From Watersipora subatra (taxonomy: Eukaryota > Bryozoa > Gymnolaemata > Cheilostomatida > Watersiporidae): a stretch of DNA of 64,000 nt. Below the pieces are notes generated by a model. That model saw only the letters and a list, made by a program, of their open reading frames with translations. It was not told where the DNA came from and did no database searches. Positions 13,401 to 56,400 of the stretch are shown here, in pieces. Every line of letters starts with the position of its first letter. Positions within the stretch are counted from its first letter, which is position 1. The stretch covers positions 34,088,121 to 34,152,120 of the forward strand of contig NC_088711.1 of assembly GCF_963576615.1 (NCBI RefSeq), in the 5' to 3' direction. The translations under genes were made by a program, and so were the position numbers.

Positions 13401-16400
13401 AGATCAGCCTTACAATAATAATAATAATATTGCTATTGTGAGTGGTTATATTAATAATACCAATAATGATAATAATAATGATAATATTAATAGTAATGAG
13501 GATGTGTGGTAAGGCTAGTAATGAGGATGTGTGGTAAGGCTAGTAATGAGGATGTGTGGTAAGGCTAGTAATGAGGATGTGTGGTAAGGCTAGTAATGAG
13601 GATGTGTGGTAAGGCTAGTAATGAGGATGTGTGGTAAGGCTAGTAATGAGGATGTGTGGTAAGGCTAGTAATGAGGATGTGTGGTAAGGCTAGTAATGAG
13701 GATGTGTGGTAAGGCTAGTAATGAGGATGTGTGGTAAGGCTAGTAATGAGGATGTGTGGTAAGGCTAGTAATGAGGATGTGTGGTAAGGCTAGTAATGAG
13801 GATGTGTAGTAAGGCTAGTAATGAGGATGTGTGGTAAAGCTAGTAATGAGGGTGTGTGGTAAGGCTAGTAATGAGGATGTGTGGTAAGGCTAGTAATGAG
13901 GATGTGTGGTAAGGCTAGTAATGAGGATGTGTGGTAAGGCTAGTAATGAGGATGTGTGGTAAGGCTAGTAATGAGGATGTGTGGTAAGGCTAGTAATGAG
14001 GATGTGTGGTAAGGCTAGTAATGAGGATGTGTGGTAAGGCTAGTAATGAGGATGTGTGGTAAGGCTAGTAATGAGGATGTGTGGTAAGGCTAGTAATGAG
14101 GATGTGTGGTAAGGCTAGTAATGAGGATGTGTGGTAAGGCTAGTAATGAGGATGTGTGGTAAGGCTAGTAATGAGGATGTGTGGTAAGGCTAGTAATGAG
14201 GATGTGTGGTAAGGCTAGTAATGAGGATGTGTGGTAAGGCTAGTAATGTGAGAAAATAATGAGATAAACTAGAGAAATGCCGAAAGTTGGCAAAGAAGTT
14301 GGAAGAAGACCAAGAAGACCTTCATGATTGATATTTTTTGTTGTTGTTGTTAGGACAGTAGGTAGATTCCAGAGTGTTGAGAAGGAGCTGATCTAATTAA
14401 ATACAGACATTGAAATATGAAAATAGACACTTCACTACTTTTTTGAAATGAATGCTGTGAACAGTTCTGAGTTAGCGGGTTATATATTTTGACCTGAGAC
14501 TCAATGCCATTATTGACATTTTAACTCAACAACATGCCGGGCTTTCTACATTCTATATAATAATATTAACACAATGCAAGTGAATCTCTGAACATTAGTA
14601 ATAAGTAGAGCTGGTCTAGAGTTTGCGCAACTCGAACAGCAACTTGTTTTCAATATTGATTTGTTTAAATAGGGAACATCTTTAATCTGACTGACCTTCC
14701 TGACTTTATTGATAGTATGCAACCTTGTTTTGCTTCTATTTATAACTTTATTTATGGTATGGAAAAATTGTTCAATCTTTATTTATAACTGTTCAGTCTT
14801 TATTTATAACTGTTGCATAGCTTTCTGTATAGTCGTTTGTGTACCCTACATTAACCTGTCTATGTAATTTTCTATATAGCCCTCTATATAGCCCTCCATA
14901 TAGCCCTCCATATAGCCCTCCACATAGCCCTCTATATAGCCCTCTATATAGCCCTCCATATAGCCCTTTATATAGCCCTTTATATAGCCCTCCATATAGC
15001 CCTCCTTATAGCCCTCCATATAGCCCTCCTTATAGTCCTCCATATAGCCCTCTATATAGCCCTCTATATAGCCCTCCATATAGGCCTCTGAACATTTTAA
15101 CCACTCATGGTCATAAAACTCATCTCATGCAGTCATGTTTCATGTGGCAGACACTGCTCGGCACACCCAGAGTAACAGATGTGAACATAATGCTGAGAAT
15201 ACTGCAAGAGGGAGATTTGAGGTGCAAGACTGAGGACTCAACTACATTTCTGCATGAAAGCGTCAAGTATAGCCTTCCCGCTCAGTTTGTAGCCAAACTG
15301 TTCAGTTTGGATGTGCCTCTGGAGGAGAGAGACAATATGGGCTTCACAGCGAGGGAATGCGCCCTGAAAGCCAACAAACTAGATCTTGTGCAGGTGAGCA
15401 TCTTACTAGCGTTAGCCTTGAGACTGCGTTTTCTGCTGATGTGTAGAGCTTTTCTGAAGAATTGCTTGCATCAGGCTATAGCCATGAAGTAGCCTTGTTC
15501 CTCAGGCTAAAATACAAGAATTGATGAGCTTTCAAATGAGACTATTATCTGTCGAATGTCAAGTGTGGTTGTTCAGTGATTTGCATAAGCTCATGTATGT
15601 TAGTGCAAGTGCTTTGTGTAAGAAGGATTGACGATATTATTTTCAGCATGTCAATACTCTGTTAGATTGTTTAAATAGATGAGGATGCTAGTTGGCTATT
15701 TTATAATAAAAAGCCTTGAGCACCAGTAGCACATATTAGTCTGTTCTCAATATAATTATCATGTCCTTAACTTCAAAATGAGTGTTACAGTCATATCTAG
15801 ACATACGAGCGTAATGCGTTTTGGGACTGAGCTCGTATGTCAATTTAATCGTGTCTCAAGTCGCTATTTCCTATATAAAATGGTTTAATACAAATTAATC
15901 CGTTGCCATACTATAAAAAGAACACAAAACAGGATATTACGGTGGGAAATCGTATTTTTAATTGTTGTAATTCAGTACCTACGCTAACAAATTGACAAAT
16001 GCCTGTTTAATTGTTAAAATCTGAAATAAAATGTAACATTGTTATGTACGCTACTGTAAGCTTTTACCTTTAAGACAGACATAGAGGTTAACGGCAGTCG
16101 GAGAAAGACTTAACAGCAAAGTGTTTGGTAAACTAAACTTTTATGACACTACGTAACAGCAAATTTGAATTTAACTTCAATGAATTTAACTTACTAAACG
16201 CACACTTGAAGCTAATGCTCAATCTTTTACTAAACTTACTTTAATTTTATCGTTTTACTCGAAATAAAACTAGACAATCGATGTGCAGCCATAACGAAAC
16301 TAAGTTATTAATATAATACTATATTCTATATGGATAAGGATATGTTAAACAGCGTGTACTAATACTGCTGACGTATACCACTATATATTGTCTTGTATAG

Positions 16401-19400
16401 CTGACAGCGGTAGACTGTAATGAATAAGTTATTCTAGTTTAACTTCCTTGTAAAGAGGGGAGTAATATGGAGACAGTTGAATAGAGGGGAGTAATATGGA
16501 GACAGTTGAATAGAGGGGAGTAATATGGAGACAGCTGAATAGAGGGGAGTAATATGGAGACAGCTGAATACCGGCTACTTAGGTAAACATTTGTTCTAAA
16601 AATTATCACCTCAACTTTCATAAATCAAAAAAGTGGCATTAGTTGTGTTTAGACAACCGACAACACCTACATTCATCCTGGACACTGGTCTTCGCCTCAG
16701 CTCATGTACTATATAGCCTAATTATCCTTATGTAAGAATGGGGCACCAGAACAGGTCAAATACCAGCCATCGATGTAAAACTAATTCAAAAACTCCGGCC
16801 AAGTTAATGATGGGATGCATGGCAGCAGAGCCATGGCAGCCGTGTAAATAAGCTTATACTGTAATCATTTTTCTTAAAATGTGCAATAAATCAACTTTGA
16901 AGTTTTAAGGAGATGCAGGCTGGTCTGTTTCCTGCTTTACTCGCGTTCTACCCACTAATGCTATTTCGTTGTTACTATACTGTTATTTATCAACTATGTA
17001 ATAGCACCAGGTAATGGTCTGGCACTTTTCTACAATGTTAAACACATAATAACTCTTTTGATGTTTTTCGTAGAATCAGTCAAAATTTAGTGACTGGAGG
17101 GAGAATAACTCATGCACATGGCTAGGAGGTATTCAAACTTTCACTGCTCATTCTTCTCAATTATTTAGTGTATGGTGATAAATTGTTTGGTTCTTCCATC
17201 TCCTGACACTGCGCTTAAAAACTGATCTCAAGTCCACCTATTCATACTGCCAACCTGTAACAACTTCTTGTTAACGTGTTTTACTTTATAATCAAATATG
17301 GACGAGTGGTTTTCACCAGATTGTTGTTGATGTCGAATGTACTTGCTGTAAAACATTACTTTAATTCATACAAAGAAGGCTGAGAAGGCTGAGATGTTTC
17401 TAAGCGAGTTGCACTTTTCACATATGCAGTTGTTTTATCGACACGCTGTTTACTCGTTAATCTGCTGCTGACACAGGTGATGGATGACGTGGTCATACAG
17501 GCTGCCAGAGACGGTGACCTCAAGAGACTCGAGACTATCGTACTTCAGCACTATGAGATCAATGAGGTGAAAACAGCGAATGGCCAGAGATTGGCTACAC
17601 TGGCTGCAAACAAAGAGCTACCATCCAAGATGGTCAAGTTCGTACAGAATATACCGGATATGCAGGCATGTATAATGCGTATTCAATATACCATGCTGAA
17701 TGAGAATGGACCGTTTGGAGAATTGCCCTGCGCTATCGTAACGACGATGGTTAATATTTTTATTAGGCGCATATGCAGAATCTCTGGAATTGTGTATACA
17801 GAAACGATCTCGTTCAGCTGAGGAAGTACCTGTCTAGCAAGGATCTAAAAAGAGTTATCTACTCTCGTAACAGGTAGGTATTGATCTCTGTGTATTGAGC
17901 TCTTTACATACTTATCTATGCTAGAGACAGCTTCTTGCATTTATTATCATTCATTATTCCTTGCACTGTAGGATTCCTGTGGTCCTGCAGAGCTGCAAGT
18001 CTGGCCCTGATCACAGTTTGAGTTTTTTTTTGCAGTGTTCATGTTTTTCGGGAGTTATGCGATCATTCTACCTCTCCTTTTACAAGCTTTTTATGTCTTG
18101 CTACTAACAACTTGTGTGTATATTTAAATATCTACATGTTTTGACCTTCTAACTATGGATGTCAGTAATTATGTCCATTTTTCCAGCATCTGCCAACTTG
18201 TCAATGATTGTCAGAAGTTAAATATTTGTCTCTCTGTGATTGCCAGAAACGGTTTGCATGTTTGTCTCTTGTCGCTAGGAGTTGTGTGCCCTTCTGTCTA
18301 GCATTGCTGTGAGTTGTGTGCCCTTATGTTGTCAGGTGTGGCAGGAGCATACTGCTCCTTGCTATACTCTACAAGAACAAGGAAGCTGTTCGCATGATTC
18401 TTAAAAAGCATCATCGGCTTGTTGAATATTTTGATAATGTAAGTTAAGACCTTTGTATTCTTTGTTTTCTTTGTTTCTGATTGGCTATACTTGACCATTT
18501 GATTTTTAAATCAACAATATTAGTATATGTGTTTAACAATATGACACACGTGTCTAAATCCTTATTTGATGAAATCATAACTGAAAGTTTGTTGATTTTG
18601 CTGCGGTCCGAGTTATGACAAAGTCTCTTGGTAAGCGTGCAAATTGGCTGTCATCTCAAGTTTGGCAAAATGTTTTGGCACAAATTTATCAATTTTATTG
18701 GCTAGTTCCTCTAGCATCTAATTTTTCTCGTTTCACACTAACTATGCCATATAAGGTAAGGATTATAGGTCAAACTTCACCTTTTGATAGCACTGAAGCA
18801 ATATTATGTCCATCCTTTTTTGATGGCTCAAAGTCATGCTCACAGTACATCGACCTTTTTGTCAATGTATGTACATTCCGTACACTCTGTACATTGACCT
18901 CTCATCTGTACCATTGCTCTGTTCATTGACCTCTCCTCTGTGCCATAGCTTGGTTCATTGACCTCTTCTCTGGACTGTAGCACTGTTCACTGACCTCTTC
19001 TCTGTACCATAGCACAGTTCACTGATCTCTCATCTGTACCATAGCCAAGTTCACTGACCTCTCAACTGTACCATAGTTCCCTTGACCTCTCTTCTGTCTT
19101 CCAGAACATGCTTACCTGTCTTCACTACTCGTATTTGATGTTTGGAGATGACATGGAGATTGCACAGTTATGTCAGGCTGCAGGAGCATCTGTTGACTGG
19201 TGCTGCTCAGTAAGTTATCTTAATACTAGCTGTTCTCACCAGGCTTCTACTAAAACATGTTGTGTTTCATTTAATGAACGCAATAAATTTCAGGAGATTA
19301 GGACTAGGATAGAAAGGTTAAACATACCCTGCCAGAAGGCACTATTTCCTGTCATTTATATGCATCTCCTCAGGCAGATGTGGGCTTACCACATGTGGAT

Positions 19401-25727: not shown

Positions 25728-27476
25728 GAGTAACAATACATAGCGTGTTGTGATGGCCAGCCTCAGCCCTGGTTCAACACAATACATAGCGTGTTGTGAT
25801 GGTCAACCTCAGCTCTGGTTCAACACAATACATAGCGTGTTGTGATGGTCAGCCTCAGGTCTGGTTCAACACAATACATAGCGTGTTGTGATGGTCAGCC
25901 TCAGGTCTGGTTCAACACAATACATAGTGTGTTGTGATGGTCAACCTCAGCTTTGGTTCAACACAATACATAGCGTGTTGTGATGGTCAGCCTCAGCTCT
26001 GGTTCAACACAATACATAGCGTGTTGTGATGGTCAGCCTCAGGTCTGGTTCAACACAATACATAGCGTGTTGTGATGATCAACCTCAGCCCTGGTTCAAC
26101 ACAATACATAGCGTGTTGTGATGGTCAGCCTCAGCTCTGGTTCAACACAATACATAGCGTGTTGTGATGGTCAGCCTCAGGTCTGGTTCAACACAATACA
26201 TAGCGTGTTGTGATGGTCAGCCTCAGGTCTGGTTCAACACAATACATAGTGTGTTGTGATGGTCAACCTCAGCTTTGGTTCAACACAATACATAGCGTGT
26301 TGTGATGGTCAGCCTCAGCTCTGGTTCAACACAATACATAGCGTGTTGTGATGGTCAGCCTCAGGTCTGGTTCAACACAATACATAGCGTGTTGTGATGG
26401 TCAACCTCAGCTTTGGTTCAACACAATACATAGTGTGTTGTGATGGTCAACCTCAGCTCTGGTTCAACACAATACATAGCGTGTTGTGATGGTCAGCCTC
26501 AGGTCTGGTTCAACACAATACATAGCGTGTTGTGATGGTCAGCCTCAGCTCTGGTTCAACACAATACATAGTGTGTTGTGATGGTCAACCTCAGCTCTGG
26601 TTCAACACAATACATAGCGTGTTGTGATGGTCAACCTCAGCTCTGGTTCAACACAATACATAGTGTGTTGTGATGGTCAACCTCAGCTTTGGTTCAACAC
26701 AATACATAGCGTGTTGTGATGGTCAACCTCAGCTCTGGTTCAACACAATACATAGTGTGTTGTGATGGTCAACCTCAGCTTTGGTTCAACACAATACATA
26801 GCGTGTTGTGATGGTCAGCCTCAGCCCTGGTTCAACACAATACATAGCGTGTTGTGATGGTCAGCCTCAGGTCTGGTTCAACACAATACATAGCGTGTTG
26901 TGATGGTCAACCTCAGCTTTGGTTCAACACAATACATAGCGTGTTGTGATGGTCAGCCTCAGCTCTGGTTCAACACAATACATAGTGTGTTGTGATGGTC
27001 AACCTCAGCTTTGGTTCAACACAATACATAGTGTGTTGTGATGGTCAGCCTCAGCCCTGGTTCAACACAATACATAGCGTGTTGTGATGGTCAGCCTCAG
27101 GTCTGGTTCAACACAATACATAGTGTGTTGTGATGGTCAGCCTCAGCTCTGGTTCAACACAATACATAGCGTGTTGTGATGGTCAACCTCAGCTTTGGTT
27201 CAACACAATACATAGCGTGTTGTGATGGTCAACCTCAGCTCTGGTTCAACACAATACATAGTGTGTTGTGATGGTCAGCCTCAGCTCTGGTTCAACACAG
27301 TACATAGCGTGTTGTGATGGTCAGCCTCAGCTCTGGTTCAACACAGTACATAGCGTGTTGTGATGGTCAACCTCAGCTCTGGTTCAACACAATACATCGC
27401 GTGTTGTGATGGCCAACCTCAGCTATGGTTCAACACAAGACATAGCGTGTTGTGATGGCCAACTTCAGCTTTGGTT
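25728..27476. repeat. 46-bp satellite-like array, about 38 copies
   Basis: Each unit contains caacacaatacatagcgtgttg, a short inverted repeat (caacac / gtgttg, extended by one pair in the t variants), then tgatggtcagcctcag. It fills the gap between the two convergent genes. Non-coding. Confidence 0.95.
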
Positions 27477-28174
27477 CGCCTTGTAATTTAATAAGCAGAA
27501 ACAAGTGTCAAAAATAGACTTGAAACAGAATATGATCAGGTGATTTACCACTAAGTATGAAATGTAGGATTCTTAGAAGTTTATGGCAAATTCACATGAA
27601 TGACCTTTGGACACAATTTGTTTATCACCTTCCTTACATTTTTCAAAGTAATGAAAGTTCCCAATTAAAAGACTTTTAATCTGCCCAACAGCAATTATTT
27701 ATGATAACCACAGAAATAATTATCAATAATTAAAAATACATAGCTACTCAATGATTAAACAAACTTCATCTTCGAAGTGAAACTGCTGAGAAGTTATTGT
27801 TACGCTCGTATTGTTGATCAATGGTTTGCAGAACTAGCCCTTGTGCATCAACACGTGTCTTTGAACCTGAGCTAACATATATATGAAAAGAGTTGACTAT
27901 TAACCATTTACTTGACTATAGGCCTCTAGGCTGACTTTTGGGTACAATGACAAGTAGGTAAAATGGAATAACTACAGAAACACAAGCTGATAAACACTGA
28001 TTGATAATCAACGTTCCAGAAAAAGTTGTCATCAAAGTGTATTCTGTTAATGCAATTACACTAATGTGGAAAATGCAGCAGACATTGATTTAACTCAAGT
28101 AAATTGTATGATAAATCTTGAATCCAATCACAGTAGGAAAAATTGCCTCCATAATATCACTGTTCTGGATTTGG

Positions 28175-28453: not shown

Positions 28454-28459
28454 TTTATT
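28454..28459 (-). terminator. Candidate poly(A) signal of the TRAFD1-like gene
   Basis: AATAAA on the minus strand, about 245 nt after the TAA stop. First such hexamer downstream. Confidence 0.45.
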
Positions 28460-28701: not shown

Positions 28702-31700
28702 TTACCCGCGATCTCTGCCAGAGCTGTTAGACTTGCCACTCCCTGCAAAGGAACCTGTTGAGGATTCAGGTGAATCATCCTCATATATCTCGGGTTTTCT
28801 AGACCAGTCCTTGTTACCTTTGCACGTCAACTAAAACATAGATCTTCCTCGTGTCAAAAATAAGAACACGACAAGATTTTCTAGACCAGTCCTTGTTACC
28901 TTTGCATGTCAACTAAAACATAGATCTTCCTCGTGTCAGAAATAAGAACAAGACAAGGTTTTCTAGACCAGTCCTTGTTACCTTTGCACATCAACTAAAA
29001 CATAGATCTTCCTCGTGTCAGAAATAAGAACAAGACAAGGTTTTCTAGACCAGTCCTTGTTACCTTTGCACGTCAACTAAAACATAGATCTTCCTCGTGT
29101 CAGAAATAAGAACAAGACAAGGTTTTCTAGACCAGTCCTTGTTACCTTTGCACGTCAACTAAAACATAGATCTCCCTCGTGTCAGAAATAAGAACAAGAC
29201 AAGGTTTTCTAGACCAGTCCTTGTTACCTTTGCACGTCAACTAAAACATAGATCTTCCTCGTGTCAAAAATAAGAACACGACAAGATTTTCTAGACCAGT
29301 CCTTGTTACCTTTGCATGTCAACTAAAACATAGATCTTCCTCGTGTCAGAAATAAGAACAAGACAAGGTTTTCTAGACCAGTCCTTGTTACCTTTGCACA
29401 TCAACTAAAACATAGATCTTCCTCGTGTCAGAAATAAGAACAAGACAAGGTTTTCTAGACCAGTCCTTGTTACCTTTGCACGTCAACTAAAACATAGATC
29501 TTCCTCGTGTCAGAAATAAGAACAAGACAAGGTTTTCTAGACCAGTCCTTGTTACCTTTGCACGTCAACTAAAACATAGATCTCCCTCGTGTCAGAAATA
29601 AGAACAAGACAAGGTTTTCTAGACCAGTCCTTGTTACCTTTGCACGTCAACTAAAACATAGATCTTCCTCGTGTCAGAAATAAGAACAAGACAAGGTTTT
29701 CTAGACCAGTCCTTGTTACCTTTGCACGTCAACTAAAACATAGATCTCCCTCGTGTCAGAAATAAGAACAAGACAAGGTTTTCTAGACCAGTCCTTGTTA
29801 CCTTTGCACGTCAACTAAAACATAGATCTTCCTCGTGTCAGAAATAAGAACAAGACAAGGTTTTCTAGACCAGTCCTTGTTACCTTTGCACGCCAACTAA
29901 AACATAGATCTTCCTCGTGTCAGAAATAAGAACTAGACAAGGTTTTCTAGACCAGTCCTTGTTACCTTTGCACGCCAACTAAAACATAGATCTTCCTCGT
30001 GTCAGAAATAAGAACTAGACAAGGTTTTCTAGACCAGTCCTAGTTACCTTTGCATGTCAACTAAAACATAGATCTTCTTTGTGTCAGAAATAAGAACTAG
30101 ACAAACAACAAGCAAGGAGTGATGAAAGTAAACTAACCCTTAGGTTAATGGTAGCGAATGGCATTTGCTAGTCTTTTTATCATATAGGAAGCTCGCTAGG
30201 AAACCAGACTACAAGTTCTTGGTGTATGACTGAAAGATGCTGTACATTTAGATCACAGCTCATACCAATGGCTTAACAGAAAATATTACAAAAAGATAGA
30301 TCAATAATATGTATGTTGATTTAAATTAAATACATATTCTCTAAAATGAATCAGTTTTACAACTGTTTACTACAAGAGGGAGAAACTAAGCTATAACCAC
30401 CTCATAAAGTGTCTGTGTTTTCAGAGAGCATAACAAGCCAACTAAGAACAAGCATGATGCCCGACACTCACATCGTGTTGAGCCAGTATCTTCTGTGGAA
30501 ACTGCTGATTACAGTAGGCACATGGAATCATCTCCTCATCAGTTAGGCCTTGACTGTAGTAGTCGGTGTTCCGGGGGTAGTTACGGCCATAGTTGTAGTA
30601 CATCGGCGACGATGTTGGATATTGTCGGGACACTTGTGACTCACCCCAATCATCATAACCTATCGATTCAAATCGATCCCTCGTGGTCGGTGATAATCTA
30701 TAAAGATTTTCAAAGTGAATAAATTGATTTCGAGTAGTCACAATGGTTCTTATAAATTGCTGTCGTAGCCTTAAAGACACGTTTACAAGTCAATGAAAGC
30801 CACAATGATTTTCCGAACAATAATATCCCCAAAGTAAACATAAGAAAAAGCTGTCAAAGCTGCATTGATTGGCGTTCACACTACTAACACTTTTATAAAA
30901 GACTTTCCAAATATTTCTGCTATTCATGAGTCTATGTCTATTAGTCTATGAGTCTATGGCATGAAAAGATTGAGTGTTGCCTATGCATTGCAACGAGCGT
31001 TTGTGGCTGATAGCTCACCATAGCAAATACATATACAATATATCTGCAGGCTGCACTTCAATTTGATTTCAAGCCCGCAGACATAAACTTTGGTCACATC
31101 TCACGGAAATTTGTTAAAAAACTGCAGAAGTTTCTGCTGAAGAATGAGTACTCTTTCTAGCATTTTCCATGACAAACAATAATGACTTGGTGAGATAAAA
31201 ATAGTTCTTATCAATGTATGAAGCATTTTAGAGAGAAATGAAAATGGTTATACAATGTCGGTAATCTTAAATGGAAGTAAGAAATTTACGTAACATGGCA
31301 TGAGGTGTGGCAAGACTATTCAATTCAGCGGTAAATCCTGACTCACTGCACCTAGTACGATAAACTACCGATAGGAAACAGAAAAATCTCACGGCGACGG
31401 AGCTGGCTCAACAGGACCACCCCTGTTTCGATCGGGCATCGCAACTCGTGGAGCCTTTTTGCAAACTAGCTCGTGTCTTGTCAAGTCCCTCAGTGGAATA
31501 GGAAACTCGCAGTGTTCACATGACGCGTATTCATCATCTTCCTCATCTAAAATAGCAAATAGAGGACACATCTGCAGAACACGTCTGCATGTTTCTATAA
31601 CTTTTTAAGTGAACCCATAACAAATATTAGCAAAAGCTAAAACGCAGGATAAAATTAGTGCTAATTTACACCAATCCACTGTCGACATGTAACCAGCGGT

Positions 31701-34700
31701 GTTGTCCCAACTAAGGACGGTTTATGGTTGCCAATTTCTGCCTCCATCACAATTGTTGTTCTTCTGCTGACTTAGTGTGCCTAGTTACTTCTATCTTCCA
31801 TGGTCGAGCATTCTACTCATACTACTAGTATCACAATTTTCTCTGTGTGCATTTCTACTCAAAAATATAGACTGTAGGGTGAGACAACTCACTGACACAT
31901 AAACAAGCTTTTTAGAAAACTTAATTGAAGTCAACATCTTGTCGGTATCCTAGTTGTATTTTTACGACAAAAGCTTATGTGAGCCAAAATTAGTACCTTA
32001 TCATCTTTGGCTTTTGTTCTTAGCTCCACATGATGTTTGCATTTTCATTGACATATTATCACAAGCCGAAACAAGCCTCTACTTACGATGGCCTTGAGTT
32101 AAATTTACCAACATACAACTCAAAACTTGAGGGGATATTTCACTCTACATCTGTGATTCTTAACATATGCCATTCAAAGTTTTTCAGTGTAACAGATTCA
32201 TAAGAAGAAAAATAAGAAAAAACTACAGAAAAATATAATTAAAATGTGAAAGTTGAGTCAGTTAGAAGCTGACAATGTTGTAAATTACGCTGCAGACCTC
32301 TAGCACCAACTCTACCTCCATGTCTATCTATTACCAAGCCTCCTTTGATGTGCCATAGTGGTAAGGTTATAATAAAACCCTTTAACTGATCATTAGTCTA
32401 TTAACTTTCTCTAATTAGTGTATTAACTTTCTCTAATTAGTGTATTAACTTTCTCTAATTAGTGTATTAACTTTCTCTAATTAGTGTATTAACTTTTACA
32501 TAATCTGTTCAAGACATTTGTTTTAATGCCATGTGCACTGACAGCATTTATTAATATGTTATCTTAAACTTTGACTTAAGGAACATAATAAACAGGTTAC
32601 AAGAATATTTTATCTAAAATACATGTATGATAGTTGTAGCACACGAAGCATATCTCAGAATGAATGAACATCCTGCAGAGAAGTTTTTAGTACATTAATG
32701 AGTATTACGAAACATTATCACACTGAAAAGTAGTTTTAGAGCAAGTTTAAGGTGACAAAAAAATCTTTACAGTTGTTTTGATCAAATTTCATAAACATAA
32801 ACAAGCTACCCAGGTGTAATGGCATTCGCAATCAAATGCAAGTGTAATGCATCCAACTATCAAATACTTTGGCAGCACAAAGAATGGTAAGCGTTTAGTG
32901 GAGCCTCTTTCTGCCTTTACCCATTCATTTGAGGCTGTTTTCTGTTTTGACAACAACACAAATCAGTTTCTTACTCTCTTGACAGCATCACCAATCAGTC
33001 TCTTTCTCTCCTGACAGCAACACCAATCAGTCTCTTTCTCTCCTGACAGCAACACGAATCCGTCTCTTTCTCACTTGACAGCAACACCAATCAGTTTCTT
33101 TCTCTCTTCACAGCAACACCAATCAGTCTCTTTTTCACTCGACAGCAAAACCACTAAGTCTCTTTCTCTCTTGACAACAACACCAATCAGTCTCATTCTC
33201 TCCTGACAGCAACACCAATCAGTCTCTTTCTCTCCTGACAGCAACACCAATCAGTCTCTTTCTCTCTTGACAGCAACACCAATCAGTCTCTTTCTCGCTC
33301 GACAGCAACACCAATCAGTCTCTTTCTCGCTCGACAGCAACACCAATCAGTCTCTTTCTCTCTTCACAGCAACACCAATCAGTCTTTTGCTCACTTGACA
33401 GCAAAACCAATAAGTCCTTTTCTCTCCTGACAGCAAAACCAATCAGTCTCTTTCTCTCTTGACAGCAACACCAATCAGTCTCTTTCTCTCCAAAACAGCA
33501 CCAATCAGGTCTTTTACTCTATTGATAACAACACTAATCAGAAGAAAAAAGACAGAGCAGCTACATAAACAAAAACCTTAAAAACCTACCTGGTGCCGGT
33601 GCAGGAGGAATAAACAAAAGGTATCTTGGACCATAGCCCGGCCTTGGCGAATCTCCATATTGTTGTGCATCTTGACTCCCTTCATAGCTCTGCCCTTCTG
33701 CTTCTGGAGTGTAGGCATACATGTACATTTGACTTCCTTTAGGATAGTGAGCCATGGCTGGAGAAGGTAAAGTTGAACTGGAAGGCTCAAGAGAAGATGC
33801 TAATGGTTTGACATCAGAGTGCCTATAACAGTGACATGGTTCTTTTCCATCATCCTCATTGCCTTCTTGATACTCATTAAAATTTTTGGGTGAAGGGTCT
33901 CGGGTCTCAAACCGCTGTTCAGGTCCTCTGTCTTGAGGCACTTTATCAACAAGTGGTTCTGCATAGTCATCAAAGAACATGCCTTTAGCGCACTCCTCCT
34001 AAAATCGTAATCATAATACAAGAGACGGAATTCATAGAAGGAAAGCCGCAAAAACCCCGTTTTCACAGAAAAAGAAGTAGTCCCTCTTTACACAAAGCTA
34101 TCATGCAAAATAAAATGTTAACAAACCTGGTGTCTGAGCAAAAGGTTAATGGGTAACTGCTTATTGCAGACTTCACACGGGGCACAATCTTTGTCTAAAA
34201 AATTGAAACTGGGTATAGTTGTGATAAGGGAAAATAGATGCGATATTAAAAAGGATGTACAATGTTTTAACAGCGATGAAACACTAGCAAGAGTAGCTCT
34301 TCTATGTATCGATACAACAAGTCAAATTGTATTGGCAGTACCAACCTGCAATAGTCTCCTCGAATTTAGTTGTCTTATTTTGATGATAGTATTCATCGCT
34401 AGACCTTTTATCTGCGGCATCTTCCATATTCTGTTCATTCTTGGCCAAATCAGTTACCGCTTTCAAACTTGATGGCTTTATGTTCGGTGGCGCTCGAGCT
34501 TTCGAAGCATTTGGCTGAGCGATCCTGTGTTTTTTATCTTTTGAATATTTGCCTGCAGCAGGATCTCCACTATCAGAAATCTGTGGCTTAGAAATGTTGG
34601 CATGTTTAGGTCTGGCATCCATTTTAGAATAATTTGCATGCGGCATTGCCTGAAAGGATTCAATGTTTCTGCTTGAATGAGGCTTTGATAAAGGCCTACC

Positions 34701-35933
34701 TGACTCATTTATGGGCCGGGTACTTCTTCGTTCAGATGCCCCACTTGTGGGTTTTGCATAGTTTACGCCATTGTTGGAAAACTGAGACAAAGAATGCTCA
34801 TTAGAAGAAGCCTGGTTGGCTTGAGAGTTGTTAATTTTAGGTAAACGGTTCATAGCGCCATGTTGGGGTGGCATAAAAGGAAAAGGGTAGAAAGCCATAT
34901 TTGCCGGCATATCAGTTGGCATATTAGCATGGCGTATTGCATGCTGGCTAGACTGATGTTGATCAGTCGCAAAATCTTTACACTGAGAGCTCTCGTGTTT
35001 TAGCATATTTTTCAGCATGACAGTGCTTTGACACTTCTCACACACATCGGTTCTTGAACCACAGACATCCTCGTGATCCCTCAATTGCGAGTGTGAGAAC
35101 TCAAGTTCACAGTAAGGACAGATCATTGGTCGCTCACTGCAGTAATTCATCTAAAATTAAAACTAGTTTGCAAATTTGCAGAAAGTGGTTTCTAGAAATT
35201 GACACCTATAATTTTGTTGATAGTATTAAAAATATTTGACACTGACCTGATGATCATCCATGTCAATTTCATATAATTCAACCTTGCAGTGTTTGCATTC
35301 TATCAGTTTGTGCTCTGCTTCATCATGTTCTTCTAGAGAAACCTTCGGCACTGCCTCTCCACATTTGGGGCATTTTACCAAATACCGTTTGCAATGCAGT
35401 TCATGCGAGAGAAATGTAGAACTTGCAATCTCCCTGTCACTGCAGTATCACATCACACAATATATGAAAGCACAAATATTGGCCACGCTGACAAAATACA
35501 ATGATCCAAAGTAAACGCAAAATGATACAAGGGTTGATTCTCTGTATTTGGCTGCTATATGTATTTATCATTTGTTTACAAAACTAGCAACAATTAAAAT
35601 AACTATTAAATACTTCATTTATGTTATGAAGTATAAATCAATTCAAAACTATTCTTGTTTTTGATATCGAATTCCAAATCTCAAAAGAATGGCAGTAACT
35701 GTTGGTACTTATTGCAACACCAATTATGGGCTCTGTAGTTAATAAAAACTAGAACTAAAAACCTTCAAAGTCAGAGAGCCTCACACTGCTGCAATTAAAA
35801 GATTAAACTCCAAAATTCTAACCTCGAACATTAGCAATAAAACTCTCTGAATTAGCCATCGACGTTAATCGGTTATAATTTGATAAGCTTACCAATTTTC
35901 ACATTTCTTCGTTTCCTCCTTCAAGGCATCCAT
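28702..35933 (-). CDS. TRAFD1: TRAF-type zinc finger domain-containing protein 1-like (complete, 8 exons)
   Basis: Exons in transcript order: 35933-35893, 35439-35247, 35150-34346, 34194-34127, 33998-33590, 31546-31393, 30697-30472, 28830-28702 (TAA). All phases agree and total 2025 nt, 674 residues, against about 580 in vertebrate TRAFD1. The start is the ATG at 35933: it opens MDALKEETKKCENC, whose CxxC pairs with the His/Cys of exon 2, as in the family. The N-terminal ~130 residues carry successive CxxC...H...C fingers, including MICPYCELEF...LRDHEDVC, the family hallmark. A low-complexity middle follows. Three separate single fingers come later: CEVCNKQLPINLLLRHQEEC (exons 4-5), CEHCEFPIPLRDLTRHELVC (exon 6) and CAYCNQQFPQKILAQHDLTC, the last split between exons 7 and 8. 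In vertebrates TRAFD1/FLN29 is an interferon-inducible brake on TLR and RIG-I-like signalling; that role here is inference. The last exon's acceptor lies inside a tandem array. Confidence 0.9.
28794..30106. repeat. 82-bp tandem array, 16 copies, overlapping a splice acceptor
   Basis: ctagaccagtcc recurs every 82 bp from 28799 to 30029. Read on the minus strand, each unit contains the gttttag acceptor and the first ~36 nt of the last TRAFD1-like exon. The array therefore spans the last intron and the start of the terminal exon. Confidence 0.95.
32385..32495. repeat. 22-bp tandem repeat, 5 copies
   Basis: Units of tattaactttctctaattag, in intron 5 of the TRAFD1-like gene. Confidence 0.8.
32945..33535. 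repeat. 32-bp tandem array, about 18 copies
   Basis: Units of cagcaacaccaatcagtctc plus tttctctcttga, diverged. It starts about 55 bp past the donor of TRAFD1-like exon 5. In the transcript it is purine-rich. Confidence 0.9.
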
Positions 35934-38715: not shown

Positions 38716-39179
38716 AGGTCATCGAGTTAACTTATTTCATAGCGGCCTTTGTATCAGCTAAGTTCTCAGTTGCTACCCACCCCGGAAACTAGCTACTAAA
38801 CAAAATAAGCACGCCGCTATCTTTGAAAAGAATACGTTCGGGTAGCCTACATGGCGCAACCAACTGCATCCCAAAAAGTCATGTACAGTCAACGTTATCA
38901 AGATTAACATTAAATTATCAATATAGTTAAATTTTTTGATAGGCTTTCGGCACAAGGGTTTGGGTTTGGCGTCGATGGATACTTTTCGGGAGTTGTGTGC
39001 ACATATGCATTTATCATAAAGGATCATGGGTCATAGGATCATAAATCTAATTTACTATCTAAAAATGCCAAATAAAATTTTTAGCAAATTTTATAGCTAG
39101 GTGGAATGATAAAAATTATTATTATAAGTAAATGTATATTCATTAAAATTCATTATAATAGCATATAATACAAATAATA

Positions 39180-39465
39180 ACATAATATTAAGCAAAAGGA
39201 GAAAATTCTCAGTTATTTCGCAAAAAAATTTGATCCCAGCGTAATTACAGCAGATTTTATGGTCAATAAACTGAATGCATGTTTACCATTAGTGCGAAAA
39301 CATAGTTCTGAGAAAACTGGTGTTAAAGTTTGAAAAACGAAAACCAATGCACAATTTTGTTTACATTTCAAAACGTCCTAGCAACCAATATCAAGAAGTT
39401 GGGATATTTATCTAGATTTCTGTATTTATATCAAAAAAATTATGCTGAATTTAAAAATCTAAAGA
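39180..39465. repeat. Truncated second copy of the 38.3-kb MITE
   Basis: Closely matches 38334-38605 (aaaaaaatttgat-ccagc, gcagattttatgg-caataaactg, gagaaaactggtgttaaag, aatatcaagaagtt) but stops before the right inverted end. It is followed by a ttttagctggtcgt block also present at 37662. Confidence 0.6.
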
Positions 39466-39754
39466 GATTTTAGCTGGTCGTCATAGAAATAGCTGTACAT
39501 GTATAAAAAAAATCGAGGCCTATTACCTAATTTTGTAGATATTAAAAACGGCTTGGCAGTACCGCGATATTGGGCACAGCCGTAGTGTCATCAACAAAAT
39601 CTTTAAAAAATTAATGACAGTAACATATTACACACCATCGGCCACTATATACTTTGATCTTGTAAATTCGAATGATTATTCTTATGATTAAATCTTATAA
39701 TAATCTTATAAAATTGAATAATTATTCAGATTACTTTTCAGTACTTAAAATTAA

Positions 39755-39980
39755 TACACAGAAACCTTCGGCAATTGGACAATGCCATAGACTGGTGAAA
39801 TGTGCACGTTTTTCTCGTGAAATGCGCACGACTTTATCATTCTACTATCTGTCACACGGCTTTACCGGCGTTTTGTTGGCCGGTCTTAATTTTGATTAAA
39901 AAAGGCTTGTCAGGTTTTAATGGCGATTTTAGGCAAAATTATTCTTTCTAGTTATGTATAATCTGATCAGATGATTATAT
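39755..39980. repeat. Dispersed repeat family, copy 3 (5' half)
   Basis: Holds the aaaccttcggcaattggac to gttatgtataatctgatc portion. A separate 3' portion of the same family is at 38926-39030. Confidence 0.55.
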
Positions 39981-40689
39981 TATATAATATATAATATAAC
40001 AATATAATCTTCATTATAATTCATAATGAATTCCTAATAACTTATATTATTATTATAATAAATAATTCTTAAATAATATAAATTTACTAGAATATAAAAT
40101 TTACTAGAATATAAGAATATATTGAATACATTCTTATTGATACCGCTTGATGATAAAACTGAGCCTCTTGATGAGTTTATGCCTGCACTTGCGCCAAGAA
40201 TTGTCTATATAGGTCACAGCTGACTTGATTTGATCAAGACTTACTAGTTTGATGTTGTTACTTACTATTACAACTGATGTGTTTCAAAAGTCACATGATG
40301 AAATGCGGAGGTGTAAGTGAGTTGTGGTATGTGAAAATTCTGCACCAGTTGTATACCAGCAGTGCTATTCATCACTGTAAATCAATCCTTACTAGATCAG
40401 TCAAACCAAAGGCGTTCTCGTAGCTTACCACCCAGAGTGAGAGTATAAGTTCATTCCATTCAATGGTACCCACACAAAAACTGAGTTAATTTTTGTTCTT
40501 GGCGTTGAGAGAGAAAAGTGAATCAGTTCTCAAAATTTACATAATCTGCAGCGAAATTGCATTTTTTTATAAACAACTGCTCAATCATGAACTGAAGCTT
40601 GGAAGACAGAGTACCAAATATCAACAAAGCTACTTCCTTGTTTTGATCAGAGCCGTATAGTTTTACAGAGTTCTGCGACCAACGGAAGC

Positions 40690-41224: not shown

Positions 41225-41790
41225 AATTTAATGAAACCTTCGGCAATTGGACAAAAAGCATAGGCTGATAAACTGTGTACCACATTTTCATACGGTCTAC
41301 GTTTATTGAGAAACCTTCGACAACTAGACAATGCCATAGACTGGTGAAATGTGCATGTTTAATTCTCGTGAAATGCGCTCGACTTTATGGTTCTACTATC
41401 TGTTGCACGGCTTTATGGGAGTTTTGTTGGCTGGTCTTAATTTTGATTAAAAACACATATCAGGTTTAAATGGCAATTTTAGGCCAAATTAATATTTCTA
41501 GTTATGTATAGTTTGATCTGATGGGTAAGTTTTAGGATATTGTCGACACTTTTCAAGGACTTGGTAACATATTTAAATAAGTTTATATGTGTTTTGTATC
41601 ATTATTATACTTAAACAACTCCACAGAAAAATGGTTAAATTTTTTGATAGGATTTCGGTACAAGGGTTTGGGTTTGGCGTCGATGTATACTTTTCGGGAG
41701 TTGTGTGCACATATGCATTTATCATAAAACTCCCAAACACTCGCTTCGCTCGTGTTTGGTCGTAGGATCATAAATCTAATTTACTAGCTA
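41225..41790. repeat. Dispersed repeat family, copy 2 (most complete)
   Basis: Contains all blocks of the family, from gaaaccttcggcaattgg to the terminal hairpin-like caaacactcgcttcgctcg followed by tgtttggtcg. Confidence 0.6.
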
Positions 41791-41812
41791 AAAAGCCAAA
41801 GAAATTATTACT

Positions 41813-44517: not shown

Positions 44518-44848
44518 TTGTGTCGAGGGCAAATAACTTGGCAAATAAGATGTCTTGGCCACATTTACGTGCAGCGGAGGGCTCTAGGAAGTGATACATC
44601 TATGTCATTCAACACTACAGTACTACATAACTGCACTACCATTCATACAATGGATTGGATAGATGCTGCGAAGGCAGCAACACGAAGCATTACGAGAACT
44701 TACAGTCACGACTGTTTTGCAATATGGATATGCATTCCACGCCTCTTCTTTAAATTCTAGAGAGCCCTTGGGCGCCAATAATCGAACCCACTTTAGCACT
44801 TTACTGCAAAAACCCATAATTGCATAAACAACGATGGAGCAACCATTA
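44518..44848. repeat. Segmental duplication containing PITP exon 3
   Basis: About 330 bp nearly identical to intron 2-exon 3-intron 3 of the PITP gene at 58014-58343, same orientation. Differences are a handful of substitutions plus a few small indels near the left edge. Both edges end abruptly in unrelated sequence. Confidence 0.85.
44704..44803 (-). pseudogene. Duplicated copy of PITP exon 3 (orphan exon)
   Basis: This 100-nt stretch matches PITP exon 3 (58195-58294) with two differences: one synonymous (Ala codon) and one changing Pro74 to Leu ([12 protein letters not shown] instead of [12 protein letters not shown]). The tgcag acceptor and the gtaagt donor are both kept, and the reading frame is open. 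Similarity extends into the intron on both sides, roughly 44518-44848 against 58014-58343. No copies of exons 1, 2 or 4 were found nearby. It lies about 5.6 kb downstream of the PITP stop codon on the same strand, so it is most likely an unused duplicate. Inclusion in a read-through transcript cannot be excluded. Confidence 0.85.
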
Positions 44849-44938
44849 TTAAAAAACCTTAATGGAGTAACCTTAAAAAACACGCAAATCTTTTAACCAT
44901 AACTTAGTTAGGGAGAGTTAGGGTAGCCCTAAATCACT

Positions 44939-47272: not shown

Positions 47273-47429
47273 GGTCAGATCTAAAAAAGATAACGACTTG
47301 TGAGTTTCTAGCCCGCAGTGTCTAAATCGGTTTGAAAAATGTGTTGGCGATTACCGGTATATGTAATCAGTAGTACCGATACTCTTCCGAGAGAAAGCAA
47401 CAAACGATATTCCAGCGGTAATTTCGGCC

Positions 47430-47870
47430 ATAGACTGGTGAAATGTGCACGTTTTTCTCGTGAAATGGGCACAGTTGTATGGTTCTACTATGTGTCGCAT
47501 GGCTTTATGGGCGTTTTGTTGGCCGGTCTTAATTTTGATTATAAAGGTTTGTCAGGCTTTAATAGCGATTTTAGGCCAAATTAATCTTTCTAGTTATGTA
47601 TAATCCGATCAGATGGGTAAATTTTAGTATATTGTTGACACTTTTCAAAGACTTGGTAATATATTTAAATAGGTTTATATGTGTTTTGTATCATTATTAT
47701 ACTTAAACGACTCTACTACAAAAAAATGGTTCAATTTTTTAATGGGATTGCGGTACAAGGGTTTGGGTACAACCGTTGATGGATACTTTTCGGGAGTCGT
47801 GTGCACATATGCATTTATCATAAAGCTACCAAACACTCGCTTCGCTCGTGTTTGGTCATGGGATAATACA
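47430..47870. repeat. Dispersed repeat family, copy 4
   Basis: Runs from catagactggtgaaatgtgc through ttggccggtcttaattttg and cttttcgggagtcgtgtgc to the caaacactcgcttcgctcg end. Same orientation as the other copies. Confidence 0.55.
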
Positions 47871-50404: not shown

Positions 50405-53400
50405 TTACTCCCCAGCCATGCCTTTGACCGGATCCGTTCTTCTCGCCTGCAATCATACATCAGTAGATAAATTCAAGCCCTTGCTTTCACCTTCTATAAT
50501 TTAAAAACGTTCGAGCCAAATGCTTAGTAATTGTACGGGTCTAAAGGAAAGCATGAGAAATATGGAGACACGCAGACGGGGAAACAGCGAGTAGCACCAA
50601 ATAGTGACACCAACAGTAACTATTTCTTCCTGTTGTAGTAGGCCGGTCCATATGGCGGACATGTTTGATGTATACGATAAGTCTTCTGGTGCACCCTTTG
50701 ATGGACAGGAAACATGAGTTTTGTACCTTAATTTTTAACAAAAAGACATTCAAAGATGAACTCACACAAAATCCTTTTAGATTTTATCGTATTGGTAATT
50801 TTTATCATTTGCGATTGTTTTTGAGATGATCTGACTGCCCAGATGTTTCAAGATTGTTTTTGAGATGATCTGACTGCCCAGATGTTTCAAGATTGTTTTT
50901 GAGATGATCTGACTGCCCAGATGTTTCAAGATTGTTTTTGAGATGATCTGACTGCCCAGATGTTTCAAGATTGTTTTTGAGATGATCTGACTGCCCAGAT
51001 GTTTCAAGATTGTTTTTGAGATGATCTGACTGCCCAGATGTTTCAAGATTGTTTTTGAGATGATCTGACTGCCCAGATGTTTCAAGATTGTTTTTGAGAT
51101 GATCTGACTGCCCAGATGTTTCAAGATTGTTTTTGAGATGATCTGACTGCCCAGATGTTTCAAGATTGTTTTTGAGATGATCTGACTGCCCAGATGTTTC
51201 AAGATTGTTTTTGAGATGATCTGACTGCCCAGATGTTTCAAGATTGTTTTTGAGATGATCTGACTGCCCAGATGTTTCAAGATTGTTTTTGAGATGATCT
51301 GACTGCCCAGATGTTTCAAGATTGAAATCGACAAAATTTAATTGCGGTTAAAACATTCAGAAGAAAAATAAATAAGTGCGAAATGATGTAACTATTTGCT
51401 ATCGTTGCTATAATTGATATCGGCTATTGCGTTTAAGTTGCAGCATTACGCGTTTCTATTCTGCTGATCTTTTTGCAACTATAAATTTTTTTGTCATAAT
51501 CACACTATTGCCTGATCTGAGCGTTTTAAACGCTGTCAAGTTTCGCCAATTTTAATCTTGAAACATCCTGGCAGTCAGGTCATCTCAAACATAAGAAACA
51601 ATAATGAAAGATAGAGAAAATACCAACACTTTATAATAAAATCTCAAGAAATCCTGTGCAAGTTGATATTTGACAAGTGTGTGAGACACATACTTGACAC
51701 CCCCTTAGTAGGGCGTTGGTAGCTCTCTAGGAAAAGAGAACATTAGATAGCTTCAAATAAGTTAAAGATTCTTCTTATTCCTCTCAAGATTTATTCTAAC
51801 TTGCTAAACTAGACGCTGAACTCCGCAAATCGCTTACCGAGTCATTCCTTTTACAAAATTAATGACTCGTTAAGCGATTTCCAATGTAGGTGTAGAGTTT
51901 TGTAGACTTGCTCTGTAGAACAAACTAAAATGTAACAAACCTCATCCAACTCTATTTTGTTCTTCTCTTCAATGGCGCGGATCTCTTCCATGGTCAGACC
52001 GTACCATTTGTCCATCCAGCAAAACACTTGCCTATGGAAGTTGGTAAAGATGCGCCTTTCTCCCTACAGGTCAAAGCAAACTATCAAAATAAGAATAGCT
52101 GGTGATCATTTCTCGCCTATACAACATGTATGCCTGGAGCACACAACTGAACACTACACTAGCCCTTATGTTAATAGCCAAATCGGTAGTTGTTGTTTCA
52201 CAGACTTAATAACAGTCTTACGCGTAGACAGCGAGATATCAGTTGATAATGGCACAAATACTACTTCACAAAAATAAAATTTGTGGGCAAGTAACAGACA
52301 CTATATAAAGAAAACCACAAGGTATGACACCGTGTGAAACCAAATAACTTTTCAGACTCGGGTAAGCTTGACTACCTTCTCATTTGCTTTGAGAACCATG
52401 CAAGATATGTACATATGTACGAGCAGCTAAAAATCTCTTGTATTTAGCGGTGATATCAAGTACAATTAGACTTACAAAATAGTAGAAAAAATGGATTCAG
52501 TGTCCCTAAAATGTACACCATCACATGGCATCACGTGCTGACTGAATAAAACAAGAAGACACCACCAGATGAGAAGCTCACAGCTCAATGTAAGCACACT
52601 TAATCATACAGGTAAAAGGTAACGTAAAACCATTTGTGGTAAGTAACACCAAAGCAAGCTAAACCTTATCACTGTATCAACAAATGCCAGAGTACGAAGG
52701 GAGCAAATAGCATGTGATCTCAGTAAGAACACTAAGCGTACGCTATCCTCAACTGACCGCAATATAAACCACGACTAACAGGGTGATAAGCCATCAGATG
52801 CTAATGCCATGACAATGTTATGTTCCAACGTTCAGAAACCCAACGCATTCACAAGCAGCATTCATAAGCAGTTAAACATTTCTGTTATTTAATATTCATT
52901 ACGGATTATTGATTGACATGCAGAGTTCACAGATAACAAGAAAGTGGCAAAGTTCAAACACACTACCATAAACAAGGGCAAACATCAAAATGGGATCAAA
53001 AGTAGTCAGCTGCCTAAAGGTCAGGGAAGGACGCGGCGTAAGTGATATTGAGCCATTAACAGACTGTGATATGAATAAATGTAGTTTTGTTGTAAGATGT
53101 TTATGCAGGAAGCACAGAAATAGCGAGGAGATGATACGTACACTCATGATGAACTTTTCGACTCTGTTCTGAAGACCAAACCAGATGAACTCAGCCCTGA
53201 CAAGCTTGTAGGAGCACATCATTGGGGTGGCTGTACTCTAAAATAATCCAGTGTTAGTTAAAATTTACCCCGAGTTCTGCAAAACACTAGAATAGCGTTA
53301 GTTAGCACAATTCTCCAGAAGTGGGTTGGTACGGCGCAAGTGTAAATACATAGGACTAAACAAAATCAATTGGAACTAAGTTTTTTTTTCTGTAGTTCAT

Positions 53401-56400
53401 ACAAGAATTACATGTATAATTGCAACTACATGTATATGATGGCTATCATCTGCGCAATAAGCAACTCACGAGTTCCTGCAATGCCTTCCCTACTACCCGA
53501 CCTCAAGACTTCAAGACATTTAAACAGCTTCTAAAACTAGACTTGAGCACAAGATGAGAACACTGAACAGGTGCACTCAATCTGAAGCAGTGATAAAACA
53601 AGCTGGGGTGGCACTCCTCGTGGGCTCTGATTCACTATGTAATATAAGTTGTAGCAAAGCTGTCCTCAGCCTTTACAACATCCTTTGTTAGTTAGAACTT
53701 GGAGACCACGGTTATGCGCACTATTGATGACAATAAGGTCCGTTTAAATGTTTAACATCAAATATAAACTTGAACACACAAGTTATAATACAACAACTCC
53801 ATTGTCAGCAACCTGTAAGACATCACAATGCGAATTCTCTTGGAAATGATTCTCAATCAGTAATAGGTTTTGTGTAAAGCACTGAAAATATCTCATTTCA
53901 TTGCTTTATATTTCATTAGAGAACAAAAGAAACTTCACTAATAACAGTAAGTTAATGAGTAGAGCTATGATATATTTTATAAAATGAATATTTTTTTACT
54001 AAGAGTTGTTACAAACAGGTTTTACCATCCAACTACACATTTTTTGCACGAATTTAATATATGCAAAAGTTTTAGTGTTTTGTCTGTGTTTTCATACCAG
54101 GGCGCATCACATTTTAGCTATTTTTTACATACATGTAGTATTGCACTTCAATTACCAACAAGAAACCAAACTTTTACATTTTCTGGTTAATGTGTGTAAC
54201 ATATTGTGTAATATGATTACCACATCTATAGGCAGTTTACTATTGATAATTGCAGTACACTGATGACTTCATATGCCCAACTGTGAAAGAACACCGCTGA
54301 AAGTAATAAAATGTTTCAAGAAGAAAAGAGTCTAAACAGCCTCAGATACTAGAATCTTATCATTCCTCACTATAAATAATATAAAACACTCGAAGAAGAC
54401 TGAGAACTAACATTATAACCAGACAACCTCACCTTCCAATCCGAGGTCAATGGACCGCGGCCTGTCTTCTTTGACTGGAACTTAGTTGGGTCCTCATCCG
54501 CTTTGTAATCTGAGGGGCGAACCATGTCATTGGCAATGTCTATGTATATAACTTCACGTTTCTTGAGCTCCTCTGGTGTTAGCTTGTGTGCCTATAAAAC
54601 ACGGGTATAAACAATAAGCTTGATCAATAGCAGTGATACTACTGACGCTGATGACTGGTCAACTATTTTAGTAATTGCTATGAAATAATGGGCACTACTT
54701 TAGGTTCCTTCCAGGAAAGCAACATAGTTGTATATAGATTATTAAAAACAGGTTGGTGAGAGCACAAGCGGTGCACCAACTCCCAGTGTCTACCAAATAA
54801 AACCTTCAAAAATGCACATAGTTTAGCTGGAATAAATTTTTTCAAAGATAGACTCGACTGTCCTAACCAAAGAAATGATGACCCTTCTACCTATCATCTG
54901 TTCTACTGTCGTACATGGACATTTGTTGCCCTCCAAATCATGATAGTGAACATTGCAGTCACTAGTAATACACTGAGCCAGCAAACATGAGATTTGGTTG
55001 TAGAGGTCAACATGAGCATTTATAAATTTGTACGCAAACTTGAGAGCTTTGAATGCTATGTGGCAACCCGTAAGGCTGGTTCACACTATATCGCAGCATG
55101 TCGGTACTAATCACATGATACTTCGGTGATCGTATGTAATAATAATGTTCACACTATCACATCCCCGTTCACATCAGCAAATAGTCTGCAATATAGTGAT
55201 TCCTTTATACAATGTAAATGCAGAAATGATGACATACTAGTCCCGCAGCAACTGTCATGAAAGAAAATATAGATCGTACAATCCGCAACGACCAATCACC
55301 ATCGCCGAAGTGGTACAAATTGCACAGGCTGTTGTGAATGCTCGGCGAACTACCGTTTGACGGTGACAATCATTCTCGACGTATCCACATTGCCTCGACG
55401 ATGTTATCGATTTACGTTACACATAGTCCATGAATAATCGCCGAGAGTATAACCCGACAAATGACGATATAATGTGAACCGGCCTTACATCTAGCTAATT
55501 TATCTCACTCAACTAATCTGTTGAGAGATAAGATCCACTGGCCACAAGGTAAGGTATTAGAGTGACAACGGAAGTTTCAAAGTATTTAGTTTCACTGCCA
55601 TATGAAACGGGCATCTTTGAAATCAATCTATTTTTTGTCTTGATTTGTTCACTATTGATGTTACGCCACTGCCTACCGGATCAAAGACCCAGAATGCATT
55701 TGAAAAAGATGAGTAGAAGAGTTGAGCGATGTTTAGCTTTCACAAACAAAACAACACAAACTGCAGTGTAAAGGTCAGCATTTTTGCTGCACGAGACTGC
55801 TGCCAATATAGAAAGCATACATAACAACTTCAGTTGAGAATATTCAACTTCGCACTGACCTTGACAGTGTGTAGCAGCCTTAGCATGCGGTCATCAGCGA
55901 CGCAATGTTTTGTTACGAGATCGCTGACGAGGTACTGCGACTAAAACAGGAGCTACGCTCAGCAGCAACACTCTGCTCCTCAGAGCAGACATTTTATGCC
56001 GACTTCGTAAACACCCCGCGATATAATCATCGACAACACGGCTTTATGTAGTGACCAGCACACCAAAGTAGTCTGCCATGCGGGATTGTACAGAGATCTT
56101 GCAGCCAATTTGGAAACCAGGCTTAAGCAATATATCCTTGCACTGCCACAGAGCTTGAAAACAATAGCTATAGTACTTTGGAATTGTGACAACCGCTACT
56201 CACATTCTCAGTGTTTCCATTGTCAGCTAAGTGCATTGATTCTATGGATATGGAAAACTTGTCTTTCATATATTCTGGATTCTAAAAAACAAAATAAAAA
56301 CCCGTCACCATCCATGTTATTGCGGTTATAAAAGAGGAACAACAGGGGTCGGATATGAGGCAATATTCACGTAAGACTTGAACAGTTGTATGAATTATAA

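Follow-up and report, generated by a model that had tools for sequence, protein, structure and literature searches.

The 64,000-nucleotide (nt) stretch of the Watersipora subatra genome analysed here (contig NC_088711.1, positions 34,088,121 to 34,152,120; hereafter the window, whose own numbering is used throughout) carries on its minus strand a TRAFD1-like gene whose last predicted splice acceptor lies inside a minisatellite. The gene starts at 35933, and its eight predicted exons, whose boundaries were picked by eye from translations, encode 674 residues. Its TRAFD1-like identity, proposed in a preliminary description of this DNA, was borne out by a match of the translation to the Pfam family PF21366 (TRAFD1-XIAF1_ZnF; 35.6 bits against a cut-off of 27) and by another to PDB entry 2d9k, the solved finger of the FLN29 gene product (E 1.3e-9). 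Exons 1 to 7 fall within 30472-35933 (35933-35893, 35439-35247, 35150-34346, 34194-34127, 33998-33590, 31546-31393 and 30697-30472) and are followed by intron 7 (28831-30471; 1641 nt). Exon 8 begins at the predicted acceptor boundary 28830; if it is the terminal exon, its coding part reaches a TAA at 28704-28702, and if it ends at the donor CGG/GTAAGC it occupies 28706-28830.

Most of intron 7 consists of an 82-base-pair (bp) tandem array on the minus strand (28793-30104), for which Tandem Repeats Finder (TRF) reports 16.0 copies, 97% matches, 0% indels and a score of 2470. The motif TATGTTTTAG is found 16 times across the array at exact 82-bp spacing and directly precedes TTG at the acceptor of each unit; the 16-copy, 82-bp acceptor array of the preliminary description is thereby confirmed. 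It had been said to fill the intron. It occupies 78% of intron 7 (1274 of 1641 nt), and it reaches 38 nt into exon 8 rather than the roughly 36 coding nt first given. The acceptor assigned to the gene (tatgttttag, 28831-28840) belongs to the last unit, that nearest to the remainder of exon 8, and its use completes a zinc finger as HDLTCK. The 15 decoy acceptors lie upstream within 28913-30070 on the same strand, the first base after each being, from decoy 1 to decoy 15, 30060, 29978, 29896, 29814, 29732, 29650, 29568, 29486, 29404, 29322, 29240, 29158, 29076, 28994 and 28912. Positions -10 to +3 of the acceptor are identical in all 16 units, in keeping with the earlier claim of 15 near-identical decoys before the real site. 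Over the whole unit the pairwise identity is 73-82 of 82, with 12 of the 82 columns variable, one of them only through the flank bases (the outermost two) of unit 1, the unit at the upstream edge. The donor-like site noted previously 13 nt past the acceptor is indeed present, as AAAG/gtaaca in 15 units and with gtaact in unit 1. Within the window, no further copy of the unit was found outside the array at an ungapped identity of at least 50/82.

Minisatellites that duplicate intron/exon boundaries have been described in amphioxus as "mirages", a name that, in the excerpts available from these papers, has so far been applied to cephalochordate cases (PMC3087553, PMC3902484). The repeat unit at 28793-30104 spans such a boundary, comprising the predicted acceptor 28830 as well as 38 nt at the start of exon 8, and the array is a real and well-formed member of this already named kind. 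In amphioxus BflGb6 the 3' end of an intron is likewise repeated in tandem together with the 5' portion of the exon that follows; its units are of 150-160 bp at 81-100% identity, with 6 copies in one haplotype and 3 in another, as against 82 bp and 16 copies in a single haplotype here; regular splicing of BflGb6 was suggested by reverse-transcription PCR, whereas the bryozoan array is known from sequence alone (PMC3087553). The Adh3 mirages of amphioxus (Canestro et al. 2002, via PMC3087553 and PMC3902484) are also boundary-spanning minisatellites, but they belong to a different gene, have units of 10-72 bp and are reported to be somatically unstable. The 60- and 108-bp repeats of lancelet PGBD5 include splice sites as well; they are imperfect and fewer than the copies described here, and assemblies disagree on their number (2 or 7, and 3 or 6); Adh and troponin C are listed with PGBD5 as further cases (PMC3902484). 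As far as the excerpted accounts go, the copy number of our array exceeds that of both the globin and the PGBD5 mirages. Internal tandem repeats at human exon-intron boundaries similarly show that minisatellite variation can alter gene structure, but their units are of about 30 bp, with 4 copies on average, they occur in recent paralogues and they were proposed to form novel introns (PMC2812944). These human repeats were the only boundary-spanning arrays outside the lancelets that our literature search returned, and a search for TRAFD1 together with minisatellites returned, in the excerpts seen, only work on type 1 diabetes; neither result is a proof of absence.

The structure of the gene bears on which came first, the exon boundary or the array. 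Intron 7 interrupts a finger of the form C-x2-C...H-D/L-T-C-K, whose HDLTCK resembles the HELHCK and HELVCK with which other fingers of the TRAFD1-like protein end. Two further fingers are split near the same place by a phase-0 intron (DHQ/MNYC, which is one residue longer, and RHQ/EEC). Because of this finger-like end and these phase-0 introns at a similar place, the boundary is most likely the older of the two and the array its product, as the preliminary description had assumed, probably correctly. The reverse order, an array older than the boundary, was considered and is thought unlikely on the same grounds, judged from this one gene rather than from orthologues. The segment duplicated in tandem would thus have held the acceptor, a motif resembling a branch point and the 38 bases with which exon 8 opens, and slippage or unequal exchange, as we infer the mechanism, could have carried the array to 16 copies.

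The internal order of the array suggests that this growth was partly recent. Units 7-11 (29614-29205) are identical to units 12-16 (29204-28795) at 82/82 positions in each of the five pairs, or 410/410 bases, and the identity continues for 62 bases further upstream and 2 downstream; a five-unit block is thus present twice in 28795-29614 (minus strand), and its second copy holds the assigned boundary. Units 2 and 3 are identical to one another, and unit 1 is the furthest from the consensus, with 7 differences (two of them flank bases) against 0-3 in the other 15. A recent expansion has apparently added or copied five units in one event, and the block so repeated includes the assigned acceptor, so that growth would have involved the functional acceptor itself, and the exon's own boundary would belong to a homogenising repeat family: the last copy would stay the functional boundary while being exchanged with the decoys. 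An exact repeat of five units could also be produced by an error of assembly, with the array collapsed or expanded, and the amphioxus draft, according to the excerpted account, did appear misassembled at one mirage; the ordered pattern of the variable columns and the lack of indels make such an artefactual copy number very improbable here.

To judge which acceptor is used, splice matrices were built on 13 acceptors and as many donors, taken from two genes of the window and picked from translations, with 28830 left out of the training. With leave-one-out scoring the 13 reference acceptors range from -2.9 to 11.6; all other scores were obtained with the whole matrix. The acceptors of the array score -1.1 to 2.2, with 12 of the 16 at 1.5, and 4 of the 13 reference acceptors score below 1.5; the matrices are T-biased, and C-rich acceptors score low for that reason. 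The array acceptors are therefore weak to middling in strength. The preliminary description took no account of two stronger single-copy acceptors on the same strand, one upstream of the array (30341-30360; first base after it 30340; score 8.2) and one within exon 8 (28743-28762; first base after it 28742; score 8.9). Use of 28742 would drop the last Cys of the zinc finger. Use of 30340, by which transcripts would bypass the array and leave exon 8 as a minor form, would add the short end RICI-stop to exon 7 and preserve the H-x3-C spacing; such a bypass, for all the strength of its acceptor relative to the approximately 1.5 of the array, is distinctly improbable, given that the 236 nt from 30340 to the array contain no AATAAA or ATTAAA and that exon 8 has both its finger-like start and a good codon score outside the array (+14.0 bits over 30 codons, as against -2.5 over the 12 codons inside).

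We consider, with a probability of about 0.6, that the array is a boundary-spanning minisatellite grown from the boundary of exon 8, that most transcripts are spliced to 28830 and that use of the decoys is minor. The acceptor at 28830 is probably favoured because no other copy is followed by the remainder of the exon and none lies nearer to its downstream end, be this donor 28706 or a poly(A) site; the advantage that we give to the last copy nevertheless comes mainly from the precedent of the amphioxus mirages, for which, according to the authors of the globin study, the Adh3 data and their own reverse-transcription PCR suggest that regular splicing is not disturbed (PMC3087553). The context of the site tells in the same direction to a small degree. 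Over nt 38-60 past the acceptor the last copy has a purine share of 0.64, and the 15 decoys have one of 0.23-0.27; this argument is weak, since the difference shrinks over nt 38-126 and since GAGGAAGA recurs among the units.

Several points weigh against a preference for the last copy. Over nt 38-126 the purine share is only 0.56 against 0.49-0.53, and GAGGAAGA occurs in 12 of the 16 units. The branch-like motif is TTGAC in the last copy and in unit 11 and CTGAC in the other 14, although the search motif is too loose to decide the matter (3 of the 13 reference acceptors have no match at -60 to -9). The ends of the globin mirage cluster, exempt from the concerted evolution seen within it (PMC3087553), need not homogenise, whereas in the present array unit 16, at the functional edge, matches the inner unit 11 exactly and only unit 1 has clearly diverged. 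The decoys are transcribed before the assigned acceptor. Competition between splice sites was studied experimentally by Reed and Maniatis, according to PMC9225289, and the same source states an intron-centric proximity rule, by which upstream acceptors are favoured when sites are equal, and gives upstream preference as the overall finding for 3' sites at least 20 nt apart. Exon definition, by contrast, speaks for the last copy, as it gives the advantage to whichever site is closest across the exon, though for 3' sites the data are described as a significant reduction of the upstream preference. Three of the seven introns of the TRAFD1-like gene measure at most 151 nt and four at least 453 nt, so that either intron or exon definition is possible.

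What use of a decoy would yield depends on exon 8. If it is terminal, alternative tails would result; if it is internal, the messenger RNA (mRNA) would be prone to decay. The preliminary description treated it as terminal. This view is favoured by an AATAAA some 240 nt past the stop, at 28459, but is left unproven by the position of that stop, for the TAA overlaps the donor CGG/GTAAGC, whose score of 7.2 places it with the 79 of 8048 stop trinucleotides (1.0%, both strands of the window) that lie in a donor this good. The best candidate for a downstream exon on the minus strand, 25593-25552 (acceptor 6.8, donor 6.9, phase compatible), ranks first by codon score among the downstream acceptors scoring at least 2, but with just +3.7 bits, which exceeds the top value of one control stretch (1.3) but not that of the other (8.3), and because of the latter it is only tentative. 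Between exon 8 and this candidate TRF also reports a 46-bp unit in 37.9 copies (25733-27477).

When translated, 14 of the 15 decoys (2-15) give a 32-residue tail in one common form with small changes, in agreement with the preliminary description except for decoy 1; most of them keep LTC, as stated earlier, but decoys 2 and 3 read LAC, 9 and 14 read LMC, and decoy 1 meets an in-frame stop (LTCKGN-stop). Were exon 8 to end at donor 28706, the stops reached from the decoys would stand upstream of an exon junction, where they are expected to trigger mRNA decay. In the model of the preliminary description the decoys would be used at a substantial rate, and the yield of alternative C-termini, or of decay-prone mRNAs with an internal exon 8, would follow copy number. 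The common acceptor core of the 16 units, the LxC kept within the 32-residue tails and the closeness of the upstream acceptors to the 5' site all favour such use, as do two published observations: the copy number of a 38-bp variable number tandem repeat in intron 6 of human TERT is related to splicing, although its units, unlike ours, hold no repeated splice sites (PMC3948165, PMC11830802), and the authors of the globin study allow that mirage copies bearing splice signals could serve as cryptic sites (PMC3087553). The published data from amphioxus point to normal splicing (PMC3087553, PMC3902484), the acceptors of the array score low, if not lower than all of the reference sites, and decay would be expected with an internal exon 8; we regard substantial decoy use as rather unlikely. 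It is more doubtful still that the array is a working rheostat, in which copy number would set the share of decoy-terminated transcripts and hence that of full-length TRAFD1-like protein, whether by alternative C-termini or by decay; alleles of such a rheostat would change quickly, since the functional site would be exchanged with the decoys. The even arrangement of acceptor, 13 nt and donor-like site in every unit could also supply 13-nt microexons. The donor score is 5.8 for unit 1 and 3.1 for each of the other 15, compared with -0.3 to 9.9 for the 13 reference donors, and every chain translated, with one or two microexons for each of the units and with three for one of them, stops after 9 residues, as LTCKVDVQR-stop, LTCKVDVQS-stop and close variants; splicing-in of microexons is accordingly hardly credible.

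Minisatellites are common in the window, which favours our reading of the array as one of them: 29 arrays, obtained by merging 38 TRF rows, take up 13.2% of the sequence; of the 31 splice sites listed, only 28830 lies inside a TRF array. Splice motifs were scored in 21 of the 29 arrays with no null model, and we claim no enrichment. A second, smaller acceptor-like array was detected by TRF on the plus strand (18885-19104): six 32-bp pyrimidine-rich units (18885-19076), five of them ending in AG, run up to the acceptor of an exon predicted at 19105. The 23 nt before this exon score 9 against the 32-bp unit (16/23 identical), a value reached by none of the 7603 AG sites outside the array region (best 8). 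On the T-biased matrix five of the units score -4.2 to 0.7 and the acceptor of the exon 5.0. A hand-joined protein of seemingly the same gene gives ankyrin repeat matches just above the cut-offs, and exon 19105 is perhaps part of an ankyrin-repeat gene.

Other features of the window may be noted briefly. A plus-strand array at 13491-14248 (25-bp unit, 30.3 copies, 99% matches) has a donor-like GTAAGG, of score 6.2, in its unit. A phosphatidylinositol transfer protein gene (PF02121) lies on the minus strand at 50408-60217 with seven exon matches, between two of which stands an array of a 39-bp unit (50813-51324; 13.1 copies, 100% matches) that is open in two minus-strand frames. One exon of this gene, with its splice sites, is duplicated over 333 bp at 95% identity (58014-58340 and 44518-44849), the duplicate being located past the predicted end of the gene. 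Self-comparison revealed a dispersed repeat family, 73-87% identical, at 1-563, 38920-39990, 41232-41804 and 47427-47868. Searches of the window against Rfam at the gathering threshold and with a tRNA scan gave no match.

Reed and Maniatis reportedly used duplicated sites in their competition experiments. The array of the TRAFD1-like gene would offer a natural test of the choice that the spliceosome makes among 16 near-identical acceptors spread over 1.2 kb, a situation otherwise set up by hand. The presence of two acceptor-like arrays in a single 64-kb window hints that such arrays form frequently in this genome. Moreover, the repeated five-unit block suggests that the growth of an array is able to copy a functional splice site, and through such copying changes that arose in the decoys, including the in-frame stop of unit 1, could enter the exon.
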